This document shows positions 1,503 through 31,832 of a DNA stretch of 64,000 nucleotides, in pieces. Position 1 is the stretch's first letter, and every line of letters begins with the position of its first letter. Under the pieces are notes generated by a model. The model did not search any database. It was not told the origin of the DNA and saw only the letters and a list, made by a program, of their open reading frames with translations. The stretch covers positions 1 through 64,000 of the forward strand of contig PHFX01000154.1 of assembly GCA_007618135.1 (NCBI GenBank). The letters run 5' to 3'. A program made the translations under genes and the position numbers. The stretch is from Candidatus Brocadia sp. WS118. Lineage in GTDB: Bacteria; Planctomycetota; Brocadiia; Brocadiales; Brocadiaceae.

Positions 1503-2267
1503 TTAGCAAGTATTCAATGATATTTTATTCATTTTTGCCCGAAGCATGAATAAAGCCCTGTGATGAAGTTGAGATATTCTTGATTCTGAGATACCCATTA
1601 TCTCGCTTATTTCTCTTAACATGAGATCTTCGAAGTAATATAAACTAATTACCAACCGTTCTTTTTTAGGAAGCTCTGCTATGGCATTTGCTAACAGAGT
1701 TTTTTCTTCTTTTGTTTCTAAATCTCTTAACGGATCGTGAGACTTAGGGTCACTAATTTCCTGACATCTGTTTCCAGCTTTGTTATTTTCTGATTTTTGA
1801 TAATACTCTTCCAGCGAAAAAAAAGTGCCCAAACTGATCCCCGTCAGTAATTTTTCCCATTCTACAGGATCCATTTTGAGCTCTGCAGCAATCTCTTCTG
1901 ACCTTGGAGGTCTATTCAGTTTTTGTCCTAAAGATATATATGCTTCCTTCGCCATCGATGCTTTATCCCGCATGGAGCGTGGCAACCAATCCTGAGACCG
2001 TAAATGGTCTAAAATTGCACCGCGTATACGGGATATGGCATAAGTTCCAAACTTTGTATTATTCTTCGGATCATACTTTTCTGCAGCTTCCATAAGTCCA
2101 AGGATGCCGTATTCTATGATGTCTTCTTTATCAACAAAAGAAGGCAAATAAATCATGATTTTACCTACCACATACTTGACCAATGAAAGGTTTTCAATAA
2201 TTAATTTATCACGTCTTATTAAGTTTTCACTTACGTAACCTGATTTACCTTTATTTACCGCACCCAT
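1503..2267 (-). CDS. fliA: RNA polymerase sigma-28 factor for flagellar genes
   Basis: The 254-residue protein is a group 3 (FliA/WhiG) sigma factor. It lacks region 1. Region 2 is seen around residues 25-95 (LVKYVVGKI, DIIEYGILGLMEAAEKYD, FGTYAISRIRGAILDHLRS), region 3 around 100-150, and region 4 near the C terminus (KKERLVISLYYFEDL with the helix-turn-helix EISEIMGISESRISQ). It directs transcription of late flagellar genes and is held by FlgM, whose gene is in this same window at 31506-31832. The ATG has an AAAGGA site 7 bases upstream. The gene follows a small membrane-protein gene and flhG. Confidence 0.95.
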   Translation of the reverse strand: MGAVNKGKSGYVSENLIRRDKLIIENLSLVKYVVGKIMIYLPSFVDKEDIIEYGILGLMEAAEKYDPKNNTKFGTYAISRIRGAILDHLRSQDWLPRSMRDKASMAKEAYISLGQKLNRPPRSEEIAAELKMDPVEWEKLLTGISLGTFFSLEEYYQKSENNKAGNRCQEISDPKSHDPLRDLETKEEKTLLANAIAELPKKERLVISLYYFEDLMLREISEIMGISESRISQLHHRALFMLRAKMNKISLNTC

Positions 2268-20891: not shown

Positions 20892-22214
20892 TTATAAATA
20901 CTGCGATATTAAGAATTCATTATTTTCCCACCTACTACCAAAGGTATCACTTTCATAATTACATTTCACTGGTAAATTAATATAGAACGATGTCCCTTTA
21001 TTTTCTTGACTTTCAACAGAAATCTTACCGTTGTGGGCCTCAACAATCTTATTCACAATTGCTAACCCTAAACCAGTCCCTTCTTGTTTAGTCGTAAAGA
21101 ACGGGTCAAATATTTTATGAACAACTTCCTTCTTTATACCCATTCCTGTATCCATAATTCCAACCTGAATACCTTCAGATTCATCGTTTCCAAACGAACG
21201 TGTAAATACAATTAAATTACCCCCAGACGGCATAGATTGAATTGCATTTAAACAAAGATTTAAAAATGCCTGTTGTAATTTTTCAGGATCACACTTTAAA
21301 CTATCTATATCTAAATCGTATTCTTTTCGTATAATAACATTCTGTATACTCTTCTGTTTTATTTCCTCTGTCACAAAAAAAAGCGTCTTATCCAAAATCC
21401 CTGAAATACTACTGTTTTTTAAATTCAATCTGAATGGACGGGCAAATACCAGCAGTTCAGTTACTGTTTTATTTAAATTCTTTGTACCGTGAATTATATT
21501 TTTTACCAATTTTTTTCTAGGATCCGAGTCATCTAAATCCCGCCCAAGCAAAGCAGAAAATCCCTCTATTCCGTTGAGGGGATTTCGAATTTCATGGGCA
21601 ATGGATGCAGCCATAGCACCAAGTGCAGCTAATTTATCAGCACTTCTCAGTCGTGTCTCCAGTTCTCTAATTTCAGACAAATCTCTAAATACCTCCACTG
21701 CACCTATCGTGTTCTCACTTGTATCTTTAATCAATGACACACTACTTTCAACCCATTTTACCATTCCTTGATTTGTTACTATTTTCCGTTCTACGTCTAT
21801 AAAATTTTTTTTCTTTTCGAGTGCTAACAATAACAACGAAGTGCCACCGTCACTGTTTTTAAAAATCTCCCCCACTCTTGTTCCCATTACATTTGATTTA
21901 ATCACCTTTAATATTTTTTCTGCTGCCATATTAATAGTCGATACTTTTCCTTCTAAGTTTACAGCTATAACTCCGCTATGAATGCTGCTTAAAAGGCTGT
22001 TTAAATATATTGTTAAACTATCCAACTGCTGTACTTTGTCTTTTAAACGTGCATTAGCCAATGCCATTTCCCTATCAATCTCTTTAACTCTATTTTGAAG
22101 TTGATTATAAGATTCTTCCAAGCGCCTTGTGTACTGATTAAATGTATGAAAAGCCGCAGTAAGGTCAGTATCCCACTTCATTGCCAATTTGTTTATAGAT
22201 GGGGTTTCTATCAT
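20892..22214 (-). CDS. Cytosolic PAS sensor histidine kinase (NtrB/FlgS type)
   Basis: The 440-residue protein lacks membrane helices. It has an N-terminal coiled coil (about 25-70), a PAS domain (about 72-185), a HisKA box with H207 (SIAHEIRNPLNG) and a HATPase domain (N box LCLNAIQ, G1 DTGMGI, F box FDPFFTTK, G2 GTGLGLAI). It should phosphorylate the sigma-54 regulator encoded 68 bases downstream. As in FlgS of epsilonproteobacteria, the cytosolic location suggests that it senses assembly of the export gate or another internal cue; this is an inference. Confidence 0.92.
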   Translation of the reverse strand: MIETPSINKLAMKWDTDLTAAFHTFNQYTRRLEESYNQLQNRVKEIDREMALANARLKDKVQQLDSLTIYLNSLLSSIHSGVIAVNLEGKVSTINMAAEKILKVIKSNVMGTRVGEIFKNSDGGTSLLLLALEKKKNFIDVERKIVTNQGMVKWVESSVSLIKDTSENTIGAVEVFRDLSEIRELETRLRSADKLAALGAMAASIAHEIRNPLNGIEGFSALLGRDLDDSDPRKKLVKNIIHGTKNLNKTVTELLVFARPFRLNLKNSSISGILDKTLFFVTEEIKQKSIQNVIIRKEYDLDIDSLKCDPEKLQQAFLNLCLNAIQSMPSGGNLIVFTRSFGNDESEGIQVGIMDTGMGIKKEVVHKIFDPFFTTKQEGTGLGLAIVNKIVEAHNGKISVESQENKGTSFYINLPVKCNYESDTFGSRWENNEFLISQYL

Positions 22215-26421: not shown

Positions 26422-26808
26422 TTAATCAACACATTCTTTAGACCACAAAAGGTTTTTTTCTAGTTTCCCAACCTGCGGACCAATACATGTTACAACTTCA
26501 TTTTCATTTTCATAAATTGAGATAACTTTTATAATACCAGTAATATCAAACAACTTCATTATATTCTTATTCACATTAACAAATTTCAAGTCTCTTCGCA
26601 TGGCCCGAAAGTTTTTTACGTACTCTACTATTATAGTTATTGCCTTTGCAGAGAGGTATTTTGTAAACGTAAGGTCGATTATTATATAACGGGTTTCATC
26701 AGCCAATCCTTTTAAAAGAGTTTCAAGTTCTTCTATTCCTTCATATACTAAATCACCTAAAGGTAATAATATAACAGCCTTTTCATCTTCTTGTTTTTCA
26801 ATTTTCAT
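26422..26808 (-). CDS. STAS domain protein (anti-sigma factor antagonist type)
   Basis: The 128-residue protein has a STAS fold (about 8-110; IIIDLTFTKYLSAKAITIIVEYVKNF). In the SpoIIAA/RsbV family the phosphorylated Ser lies in this place (DxSxxxxxD); here the segment reads TKYLSAKA, so Ser is present but its context is altered. STAS proteins bind RsbW-like kinases to release a partner. The start overlaps the upstream REC/HATPase gene by 11 bases, a strong sign that the two work together as a partner-switching pair. Confidence 0.83.
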   Translation of the reverse strand: MKIEKQEDEKAVILLPLGDLVYEGIEELETLLKGLADETRYIIIDLTFTKYLSAKAITIIVEYVKNFRAMRRDLKFVNVNKNIMKLFDITGIIKVISIYENENEVVTCIGPQVGKLEKNLLWSKECVD

Positions 26809-28345
26809 TACAATTTACTCGCTTTGCCATGTGAACAGTAGTTCCTGTCTTTTTTGACGATTGTATTATTACCCTATCCATTAAATGTTTCATAAGAAAT
26901 ATCCCTCTGCCATTTTTTTCTGACGAGTCTGTATAGATAGTCACGTCAGGCTCTTTATAATTTTTTATATCAAACCCGCACCCACGATCACAAACCTCAG
27001 TAATAATTTCATCTCCTAATTTAATAAATTTTATGAAGACTTCTCCGTATTTATTTTTGTCATATGCAAAAGTTACTGCATTTAAAACAGCCTCATTGAC
27101 TGAAGTAATAATTTGATGCCTTTTAATATTATCTACAACCACAGATGATAATATCGTTTCAAATCGTTCTAAAATCTTTTCATACTTGTCAATAGGCATT
27201 ATTATGGAAATCATTTCCTCCCAGCAGGATTTATTTGTCTCACATGCCATATCTGAAACCATTACAGCAATATCTTTTTCATGACCAATTACCTTTCCAA
27301 ATCTTTCTATTTGAAGCTTTACACCTTTTGCCATATGCTCACAGTTGCTAATATCACCGTCAGCCATGACTTCTTTTAATTTATCAATATACCTTGTAAT
27401 TTCCCCGTTTTTGATAGCCATCGACAAAGAACTATCCTCTATCAGAATAATTTTGCTACCTGAAGTAAAAGAAACAGTACTTTGTAAAATCGTTGTCCCA
27501 GGAAACATGTTTAATGGGAAAGGGTGCGATTCCAACACCACTACTTCTTTGTTAGGAATACATAAAAGACTTATTAATTCTTCTCCATACCCAGAAAAGC
27601 AAAGCGTTTGACTTTGCGTATCTAACACAGCACAAAATAATGAAACCGGAAAACGTTGGAAAATATTTTCACAAAAATATTGATTAATATTTTTTAACAA
27701 AGAAGCGGGAGATTTATCCATTCCTGTCATATAGCTATAACGGAAAATTGCCCTAACTACACTATCAAAATTACCTGAACTCATCTTATTAGAAACACTA
27801 CCAAAGATAAATGCTCTTAAGTTCCCCAATGCAACATAATCATAAAACCTATGATTTGTAACTTCTTGAAGATTCTTTGCAAGAAAAAAAGTGTTTGTCT
27901 GCTCACATGTATCATCATGCCTGGTTTTAATACCTTCACGACTCGTAACATCGCCGCTATCAGTATTTGTCATTAAAGAATCATTTAAAACCTTATGAAT
28001 AACACCCTTTATATATTCAATTTTAAATGGTTTTGTCACAAAATCCGATACACCAATATGCATAGCTTCTATTACGGTCTCTATTGAACCGTAAGCGGTG
28101 ATAATAATAGATTTGGCCTTTGGACGTATTTTTTTAATTTCAGAAATCAATTGTATCCCACTCATCGTAGGCATTCTTAAATCACTAATCACTAAATCGT
28201 AACTGGTATTCCTAGCAAGTTCTAATGCTTTAACGCCATCGTTAATATTTTCAATATCATAACCTTCTTCTGTTAGGGCTTCGTGTAATGCCCATCGTAG
28301 TGTTTCCTCGTCGTCAACTAATAAAATCTTTTTTTTCATGTCCAT
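26798..28345 (-). CDS. Response regulator with degenerate PP2C and RsbW-like kinase domain
   Basis: The 515-residue protein has a receiver (about 4-122; DDEE acidic pocket, DLVISDLRMP, K in TKPF), a SpoIIE/RsbU-like PP2C region (about 160-385) and a C-terminal RsbW-type HATPase (about 395-505; N box NEAVLNAV, G1 DRGCGFD, G2 GRGIFLM). The PP2C domain looks inactive or altered: the first metal motif GDVSGKG is replaced by GSVSNKM. The fusion of phosphatase-like and anti-sigma-kinase-like domains to one receiver, with the STAS partner next door, points to a phosphorelay-controlled partner switch. Its output target is unknown. Confidence 0.85.
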   Translation of the reverse strand: MDMKKKILLVDDEETLRWALHEALTEEGYDIENINDGVKALELARNTSYDLVISDLRMPTMSGIQLISEIKKIRPKAKSIIITAYGSIETVIEAMHIGVSDFVTKPFKIEYIKGVIHKVLNDSLMTNTDSGDVTSREGIKTRHDDTCEQTNTFFLAKNLQEVTNHRFYDYVALGNLRAFIFGSVSNKMSSGNFDSVVRAIFRYSYMTGMDKSPASLLKNINQYFCENIFQRFPVSLFCAVLDTQSQTLCFSGYGEELISLLCIPNKEVVVLESHPFPLNMFPGTTILQSTVSFTSGSKIILIEDSSLSMAIKNGEITRYIDKLKEVMADGDISNCEHMAKGVKLQIERFGKVIGHEKDIAVMVSDMACETNKSCWEEMISIIMPIDKYEKILERFETILSSVVVDNIKRHQIITSVNEAVLNAVTFAYDKNKYGEVFIKFIKLGDEIITEVCDRGCGFDIKNYKEPDVTIYTDSSEKNGRGIFLMKHLMDRVIIQSSKKTGTTVHMAKRVNCNEN

Positions 28346-28430: not shown

Positions 28431-29828
28431 TTATAATGGACAAAGACCGTATTCTTTTATTTTATTATATAATGTTGTTCTATTAATGCCCAGTATCTTG
28501 GCTGCCTCGGTTCTTCGCCAAGAAGTTTCATTAAGGACTTTCTGAATATGTTGTCTTTCAATATTAGCCAATGAACGAATATTTAGTGCTTCATTATTTT
28601 CTACATTACTCATACCATTAGTATTTACAGCACATCCTTTTCTTAAATCAATAGTAACTCCTATTTCTGGGTGTAATATACCGTTGCCTGCAATCAATAC
28701 AGCTCGCTCAATTACATTTTTCAACTCACGAATGTTTCCAGGCCATTTATATTCCAAAAGCATTTTCTCTGTTTCTGGAGGTATGTGATAAACATTCTTA
28801 TTAAATTCATTATTGTATTTATGCACAAAATGTTTCACCAAAAGCATAATATCATCTTTTCTTTCCCTCAATGGTGGAATATAAATCGGTAAAACCTTCA
28901 ATCTATAATAAAGATCTTTTCTAAAATTATCAGATTCAACTTCTTCTTCCAAATTTCTGTTTGTTGACGCAATAACTCTAACATCGATCTTAATATCATT
29001 AATTCCACCAACCCTTTTAAATTGTCGTTCTTGTAAAATTCTTAAAAGTTTTGCTTGTAACGTAACACCCATCTCGCCTATTTCATCCAAAAAGATAGTT
29101 CCTTTATCAGCAACTTCAAACAAACCAGGCTTTCCTGCTGTAATTGCACCCGTAAAGGAACCTTTTTCATACCCAAATAATTCCGCTTCAAGAAGACTCT
29201 CTGTCAAGGCTGCACAATTAATATCTACAAAACGACCGTTTTTCCTCGAACTTAAATGATGGACAGCCCTAGCTACGAGCTCCTTTCCTGTCCCACTTTC
29301 TCCTTGTATTAATACCGTTGTGGACGGACTCTTTGCTACCTGTTTAATAAGATTATAAATCGCTCTCATCTGATAACTATTCCCTATAATTACTGCCCCA
29401 GGCTCATCAGCAAAAGTGCACTGTTGTGCCCGCAGTTCAAGCACCTCCCTTCTTAATGCCTGGGTTCCTAGTGCCTTTTCCACAACTAACCTTAAATGTT
29501 CTGTTTTAAAAGGCTTTTCTAAATAGTCATAAGCCCCCATTTTCATCGCCTCTACCGCAGAATCAATACTTCCATATCCAGTCATAACAATTATCAAAGC
29601 ATTAGGATCTTTTGTTTTTACTTTTTCTAGAAGCTCTATTCCACACATATTAGGTAATCGTAAATCCAACAATACTAAGTCTGGTAAAAATTCATTTATC
29701 TTTTCCAATGCCTGCTCACTAGTTTCTGCTACAATAACGTCATACCCTAATCCCGATAAAAACTCCTTTATTGAAAAACGAATCGTTTCCTCATCGTCCA
29801 CAATAAGAATTATCGCTTTTGACGACAT
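28431..29828 (-). CDS. Second sigma-54 dependent response regulator
   Basis: The 465-residue protein has a receiver (about 5-122; DLVLLDLRLP, K in EKPF), an AAA+ domain (about 145-375; Walker A GESGTGKE, loop GSFTGA with Ala to Ser at the second position) and a Fis-like DNA-binding domain (TSWRRTEAAKILGINRTTLYNKI). The Phe that contacts sigma-54 is retained, so activity through RpoN is likely. It has no kinase gene beside it; the PAS kinase at 20892-22214 or an unlinked kinase may serve it. Together with the regulator at 19429-20823 it makes two RpoN activators in one block. Confidence 0.92.
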   Translation of the reverse strand: MSSKAIILIVDDEETIRFSIKEFLSGLGYDVIVAETSEQALEKINEFLPDLVLLDLRLPNMCGIELLEKVKTKDPNALIIVMTGYGSIDSAVEAMKMGAYDYLEKPFKTEHLRLVVEKALGTQALRREVLELRAQQCTFADEPGAVIIGNSYQMRAIYNLIKQVAKSPSTTVLIQGESGTGKELVARAVHHLSSRKNGRFVDINCAALTESLLEAELFGYEKGSFTGAITAGKPGLFEVADKGTIFLDEIGEMGVTLQAKLLRILQERQFKRVGGINDIKIDVRVIASTNRNLEEEVESDNFRKDLYYRLKVLPIYIPPLRERKDDIMLLVKHFVHKYNNEFNKNVYHIPPETEKMLLEYKWPGNIRELKNVIERAVLIAGNGILHPEIGVTIDLRKGCAVNTNGMSNVENNEALNIRSLANIERQHIQKVLNETSWRRTEAAKILGINRTTLYNKIKEYGLCPL

Positions 29829-31505: not shown

Positions 31506-31832
31506 TCACTTCTTATTACCAAAGATATCTATGATCTTTTCTGCTACCTGCAAAATCACTTCAGGCCTCTCATAAAAACCATCTTTTATTTTTGCTTTAA
31601 ATTCCTCAATCTTTTCAGATCTTACATCAGGCATCTCACTTACAAGTGTCTTCAGATTAGTCATCGTCTGGACTAGTTTTCTTGCTTCTTTGGAGATATC
31701 GACAGAATCATTTTTTTTATCTTCAGAATAATCTTCCTTGTTGGTTTTTATTTGCAATTGATTTTCCTCAACATAATTCGAATTAACACCTTTGGTATGC
31801 GGAGAAGCATTAGTAACATCTTTTATTGTCAT
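31506..31832 (-). CDS. flgM: Anti-sigma-28 factor FlgM
   Basis: The 108-residue protein has a disordered polar N-terminal half and the FlgM C-terminal half: DSVDISKEARKLVQ (about 47-60) and PDVRSEKIEEFKAKIKDGFY (about 74-93), which binds FliA. FlgM is secreted through the finished hook so that FliA is freed. A strong AGGAGG lies 5 bases before the ATG, and a sigma-28-like promoter is at 31954-31980. Confidence 0.92.
   Translation of the reverse strand: MTIKDVTNASPHTKGVNSNYVEENQLQIKTNKEDYSEDKKNDSVDISKEARKLVQTMTNLKTLVSEMPDVRSEKIEEFKAKIKDGFYERPEVILQVAEKIIDIFGNKK

Follow-up and report, generated by a model that had tools for sequence, protein, structure and literature searches.

Two overlapping genes lie within a flagellar gene block of the window (the whole 64,000-nucleotide stretch of Candidatus Brocadia sp. 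WS118 DNA analysed here), one encoding a 515-residue protein in which a receiver, a PP2C-like region and an RsbW-like ATPase are joined, and the other a 128-residue STAS protein. These and the other genes discussed below are as follows.

26798..28345 (-), 515-residue protein: receiver, degenerate PP2C (SpoIIE-like) and RsbW/SpoIIAB-like ATPase (Pfam, 18 orthologs, residue table)
28007..28327 (-), receiver domain, residues 7-113, with acidic pair D11/D12, phospho-acceptor D55, T83 and K105 present (Pfam, residue table)
27236..27868 (-), PP2C-like domain, about residues 160-370, with Arg166, Ser183, D304 and D358 (hhalign, residue table)
26822..27181 (-), HATPase_c_2 domain (RsbW/SpoIIAB-like), residues 389-508, with E418, N422, D453, G455, G457 and G479 invariant (Pfam, alignment, PDB match)
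26422..26808 (-), STAS protein, 128 residues (Pfam, alignments)
26798..26808 (-), overlap of the two reading frames, 11 bases
28431..29828 (-), NtrC-type sigma-54 response regulator (Pfam, relatives' loci, NtrC tree)
31506..31832 (-), FlgM, anti-sigma-28, candidate downstream target
1503..2267 (-), FliA, sigma-28, candidate final target (C36:1530-2195, 246.7 bits, above cut-off)
20892..22214 (-), PAS-HisKA-HATPase_c histidine kinase (FlgS-like), candidate input to the receivers of the block (Pfam)

The domains of the 515-residue protein are matched by the Pfam profiles Response_reg (E 1.1e-28), SpoIIE (E 2.1e-9) and HATPase_c_2 (E 1.6e-17), the SpoIIE match beginning only at profile position 25 and missing the N-terminal metal motifs of the PP2C region; the small protein matches STAS (E 2e-11). 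The RsbW-like domain is by a wide margin the top HATPase_c_2 match in the genome, and STAS is matched by just two other proteins there, a longer STAS-containing one and a MlaE-like permease. Both the order of receiver, PP2C and RsbW-like domains in one polypeptide and the single-domain STAS partner adjoining the large gene are as found in the HsbR/CrsR-type response regulators. The start of the STAS gene overlaps the stop of the large gene, the overlap having an identical length of 11 bases in all 15 loci compared, and the coordinates, strand, domain order and overlap given for this gene pair in an earlier note were borne out on re-examination. PADLOC gives only a weak match, to the receiver region, and AlphaFold models of the 515-residue protein (from a two-row alignment, mean pLDDT 35) and of the STAS protein alone (mean pLDDT 43) were set aside.

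The surroundings had also been described as a flagellar block, and FliE, rod proteins, FliF, FlgM and FliA are indeed all found in the window. The gene order is flgM, a TPR protein, the NtrC-type regulator, the 515-residue gene and STAS, followed by three TPR proteins and then by the histidine kinase, a second NtrC-type regulator, rod genes, fliE and fliF; the window's family preserves most of this order from flgM to fliF, with the NtrC-type regulator directly upstream of the large gene wherever the contig extends so far. The flgM gene, three genes upstream of the large gene, encodes the sole FlgM found in the genome. When proteins with both receiver and PP2C parts are counted in 59 related genomes, they are present in 25 of the 32 that are FliF-positive and in none of the 27 that are FliF-negative (Fisher p 1e-10, a value that ignores shared descent). 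Scanning the window for sigma-54 promoters revealed no signal (three near-matches, 1.7 expected), and a literature search on flagellar control in anammox bacteria found no paper. The TPR gene is split in one relative (G005, L051:9680-10571), reflecting either sequencing error or decay.

Active sites kept and lost in the large protein

A search of the 59 related genomes yielded 18 full-length homologues including the window's own, at 80 to 37% identity (alignment A1), and all 18 orthologs are in anammox-type relatives; the nearest named genome is that of Candidatus Brocadia pituitae, 72% identical across the large protein. The same search found shorter receiver-PP2C proteins in another family, f4. 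In 294 genomes sampled evenly across the phylum, the PP2C-HATPase part recovers the window's own family only (E <= 1e-25), and the matches in plasmid records are limited to a SpoIIAB and a distant SpoIIE-family protein of Streptomyces.

Receiver residues D11, D12, D55 and K105 are kept in 21 of 21 proteins, and T83 in all but one, which has a Ser; dN/dS in the receiver is 0-0.13 (NG86, close pairs, as for all such values given here). The ATPase domain has a Bergerat ATP site with E/N box, DxGxG, GxG and GT motifs whose residues are invariant or nearly so, E418, N422, D453, G455 and G479 being kept in 18 of 18 orthologs; its dN/dS is 0.06-0.30, and its best PDB match is SpoIIAB 1til (E 1.4e-15).

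For the PP2C domain alone, a profile search of the PDB gave chance matches only, after which seven intact SpoIIE domains from the window's and related genomes were used for comparison; hhalign aligns the region with these over 194 columns (probability 98.5, E 3.4e-15), and the PP2C fold is thus recognisable by profile, as it is in Pfam, where the match is above the cut-off. In SpoIIE-type PP2C enzymes the N-terminal Asp residues of the GGD and GD motifs are metal ligands. Neither of these constituents of the phosphatase site, including that of HsbR and CrsR, is present here. In the window protein GGD has become NHR, so that Arg166 stands where the first metal Asp would be (the other homologues have R, I, T, L, V, S or A there), and GD has become GS, with Ser183 in the second (S, G, I, C or N in the others). 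Both residues are lost in 21 of 21 homologues (the 18 orthologs and three shorter receiver-PP2C relatives), and the GD to GS change first noted from the sequence of the window is therefore real, and the first metal Asp has gone with it; as the loss is common to 21 loci, sequencing error, artefact and chance can be discarded as explanations. The third PP2C Asp (D304) is kept only in the window protein and its nearest relative, having been lost in most relatives, and the last motif is partly kept, with one Asp (D358) in the window protein, while many relatives have lost theirs. A PP2C-HATPase fusion in Treponema has intact motifs, and fusion alone therefore does not predict loss. We note that dN/dS in the PP2C part is 0.17-0.36, so the dead domain is still selected as a protein, under purifying selection that is weaker than on the receiver. 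The 18 orthologs together back the proposal of a receiver-controlled partner switch with a dead PP2C and an intact RsbW-like domain.

The STAS partner

HMMER aligns the STAS protein with SpoIIAA and RsbV without gaps across the loop, FMDSSGLG pairing with YLSAKAIT, such that SpoIIAA Asp57 corresponds to Ser53 and SpoIIAA Ser58 to Ala54. The phosphosite is Ser58 in SpoIIAA (PMC8256260), Ser56 in HsbA (PMC5085249) and Ser56 in SypA (PMC4517449), and we infer that in STAS proteins of the SSAG class it is the second Ser. Ser53-Ala54 is invariant in a 16-row STAS alignment and L047, L117 and L118 likewise have it, so that all 19 of 19 genomes have an Ala aligned with Ser58, where an HsbR/CrsR-type partner has its conserved phosphorylatable serine. 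A control STAS protein on contig 139 of genome G030 reads YISSAGLR, with a Ser at the phosphosite position in a gap-free alignment. Judged from its sequence, the STAS partner is not phosphorylatable at the usual place, Ala54 replacing the phosphosite, and the 'STAS Ser' that the earlier note had assumed to be phosphorylated is not there. The STAS gene has a dN/dS of 0.13-0.34, and its family (E <= 1e-46) is confined to genomes that encode the HATPase-fused protein, with the exception of one fragmented assembly; at this threshold there is none in f4.

It is conceivable that the RsbW-like domain is instead an active kinase, acting on Ser53 of the STAS protein or on another protein. With the phosphatase of the same polypeptide dead, a separate PP2C or turnover would have to do the resetting, or there would be none, such that the receiver would set a one-way switch. 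We regard this as unlikely overall, and as the main rival to the interpretation given below, since neither the catalytic Glu nor Ser53 varies (E418, together with N422, in 18 of 18 orthologs and Ser53 in 19 of 19 genomes). The window's assembly also contains two intact SpoIIE proteins elsewhere, although these are on short contigs and may be foreign to the organism, and most module-bearing relatives have no other SpoIIE match; moreover, Ser53 falls one residue before SpoIIAA Ser58 in the gap-free alignment.

The STAS protein extends past the STAS fold in a C-terminal tail, VGKLEKxLLW (residues 110-128, window 26425-26481), which is conserved in nearly all relatives and is a possible docking motif. 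Stops interrupt the STAS reading frame in G004 (L047:9107-9340), by sequencing error or decay. The G030 contig with the control STAS protein (L116:784-3563) carries a canonical partner-switch set of intact PP2C, separate HATPase and STAS with an SSAG motif, and G030 is an anammox-family genome with both this set and the altered flagellar module.

Comparison with known systems and a proposed mechanism

By its architecture and from published descriptions we liken the anammox protein to HsbR and CrsR. HsbR/HsbA of Pseudomonas aeruginosa (with HptB, FlgM and FliA) likewise consists of a receiver-PP2C-RsbW-like protein beside a single-domain STAS protein, and adjoins flgM and flagellar genes (PMC6482189, PMC5085249). 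However, according to published descriptions HsbR is an active phosphatase, and HsbA is phosphorylated on Ser56, whereas the anammox pair has neither the PP2C metal site nor the phosphoserine; in addition, the neighbours of this pair are sigma-54 regulators and TPR proteins, with no HptB-like gene adjoining. CrsR/CrsA of Shewanella oneidensis has the identical three-domain order and a STAS partner (PMC6482189), but is phosphatase-dependent and targets RpoS. In SypE/SypA of Vibrio fischeri, a STAS protein is likewise the target of a response regulator whose output domains are a kinase and a phosphatase (PMC4517449); unlike here, SypE is active as both kinase and phosphatase and SypA is phosphorylated on Ser56. 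Among solved structures, the ATPase domain and the STAS protein are best matched by the Bacillus pairs SpoIIAB/SpoIIAA and RsbW/RsbV, but these are separate proteins with an intact phospho-cycle and without a receiver. Finally, Escherichia coli RssB, in which a receiver is fused to an inactive PP2C-type domain, illustrates that such a combination can be a functional regulator (PMC12143880), although RssB has neither an RsbW-like domain nor a STAS partner, and its PP2C is C-terminally truncated whereas the anammox fold is full length with its metal ligands substituted. What the earlier note took for a new regulatory logic is thus partly familiar, the three-domain architecture being known from HsbR and CrsR and the receiver with a dead PP2C from RssB. 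Each component has precedent and the double loss is what is new; the module would work like a partner switch while lacking two defining HsbR-type features.

The third domain of HsbR and CrsR binds RpoS (PMC6482189), and the closest solved relatives of the ATPase domain, SpoIIAB and RsbW, are anti-sigma factors. The RsbW-like domain might therefore itself be the anti-sigma factor, binding FliA or another sigma, with the STAS protein as a non-phosphorylated antagonist and FlgM uninvolved. We think this quite improbable, as no sigma gene adjoins the gene pair and FlgM is already available in the genome to control FliA.

The textbook account of partner switching is a cycle of phosphorylation at a single STAS serine. 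In the anammox module the phosphatase site (21 of 21) and the substrate site (Ala in 19 of 19) are both gone, in two separate proteins, and this co-loss is useful as evidence because the two have lost matching halves of one chemistry. Since both are lost in all relatives examined, the module probably acts by binding rather than by adding phosphate to its partner or removing it, and with Ala54 in the STAS protein an imbalance of kinase and phosphatase on that serine is not the likely logic.

Our preferred reading, which we hold tentatively, is that this is an HsbR/HsbA-type switch of anammox bacteria without the STAS phospho-cycle, in which receiver and nucleotide gate the release of STAS, most likely onto FlgM, freeing FliA. 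Building on the domain make-up, the two site losses, the conserved receiver and ATP sites, the conserved gene pair and the flagellar co-occurrence, the switch might run as follows. A histidine kinase would phosphorylate the receiver, and the non-catalytic PP2C domain could serve as a linker or dimerisation scaffold passing on the receiver state, which would decide whether the RsbW-like domain holds the STAS protein, probably together with bound ATP or ADP. Because it has Ala at the phosphosite, the STAS protein resembles the locked-unphosphorylated S58A and S56A forms, and we note that SypE, in the view of its authors, still binds SypA-S56A (PMC4517449). The STAS protein would thus be released rather than dephosphorylated, and when free would most likely bind FlgM and liberate FliA. 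In P. aeruginosa unphosphorylated HsbA binds FlgM (PMC6482189), and by analogy FlgM is a likely next partner; with flgM nearby and the HsbA/FlgM precedent (PMC6482189, PMC5085249), FliA/FlgM is a reasonable idea for the output. The fuller proposition, that with phosphosite and phosphatase lost a response regulator of anammox bacteria controls an anti-sigma antagonist by sequestration alone, gated by nucleotide and receiver, and thereby acts through FlgM on FliA, is one we advance with more hesitation. Counting against pure binding, the ATPase retains an E/N catalytic box that a mere binding module would perhaps not need, and the invariant Ser53 adjoins the phosphosite position and could be an alternative acceptor. 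If the binding reading is correct, a natural module that keeps its receiver, RsbW-like ATP site and STAS protein would show switching by binding alone, and would open flagellar control in anammox bacteria to experimental test.

Related loci in other families

In f4 the corresponding slot is occupied by a receiver-dead PP2C protein whose neighbours are NtrC and a HisKA-only protein; HATPase and STAS are both absent. These relatives (L062-L064) have no further output domain and are closer to RssB in domain content than is the window protein with its RsbW-like C-terminus. Together with the precedent of RssB as a receiver-pseudo-PP2C adaptor (PMC12143880), they are consistent with the receiver and dead PP2C being an RssB-like adaptor or NtrC partner to which HATPase and STAS are a lineage-specific addition, the output being sigma-54-dependent genes or protein turnover; we consider this very doubtful for the window's family, in which HATPase and STAS are kept under selection. 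The HisKA-only gene of f4 (L062:8420-8917, L063:8416-8922, L064:9293-9787), positioned between the NtrC and receiver-dead PP2C genes, encodes a free-standing HisKA phospho-acceptor protein without an ATPase domain, which may be a phosphotransfer protein.

The slot is variable in other genomes. In the f5 genome G039 it contains a complete histidine kinase (f5 L106:3912-5099), G046 retains the receiver alone, and G056 and G021, with f4-type loci, have no receiver-PP2C gene. The absences in G046, G056 and G021 and the missing metal sites could suggest that the module is the decaying, now functionless relic of a former HsbR-type switch. However, the frames are open in 18 genomes, the active-site residues are invariant, and dN/dS stays well under 1 throughout, in each of the three domains as in the STAS gene; the idea has very little to recommend it and we reject it on the dN/dS values.

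For the preferred binding switch, the f4 and G039 blocks bear on the choice of target: FlgM is present in these blocks without HATPase and STAS. A neighbouring flgM is therefore no distinguishing mark of the partner switch, and is weak evidence for FlgM as its target.

In a tree of the NtrC proteins, f4 is grouped with strong support, and the block of G021 (L108), an f1 genome belonging to the window's family, nests inside f4. This position suggests that G021 acquired its flagellar block by horizontal transfer.
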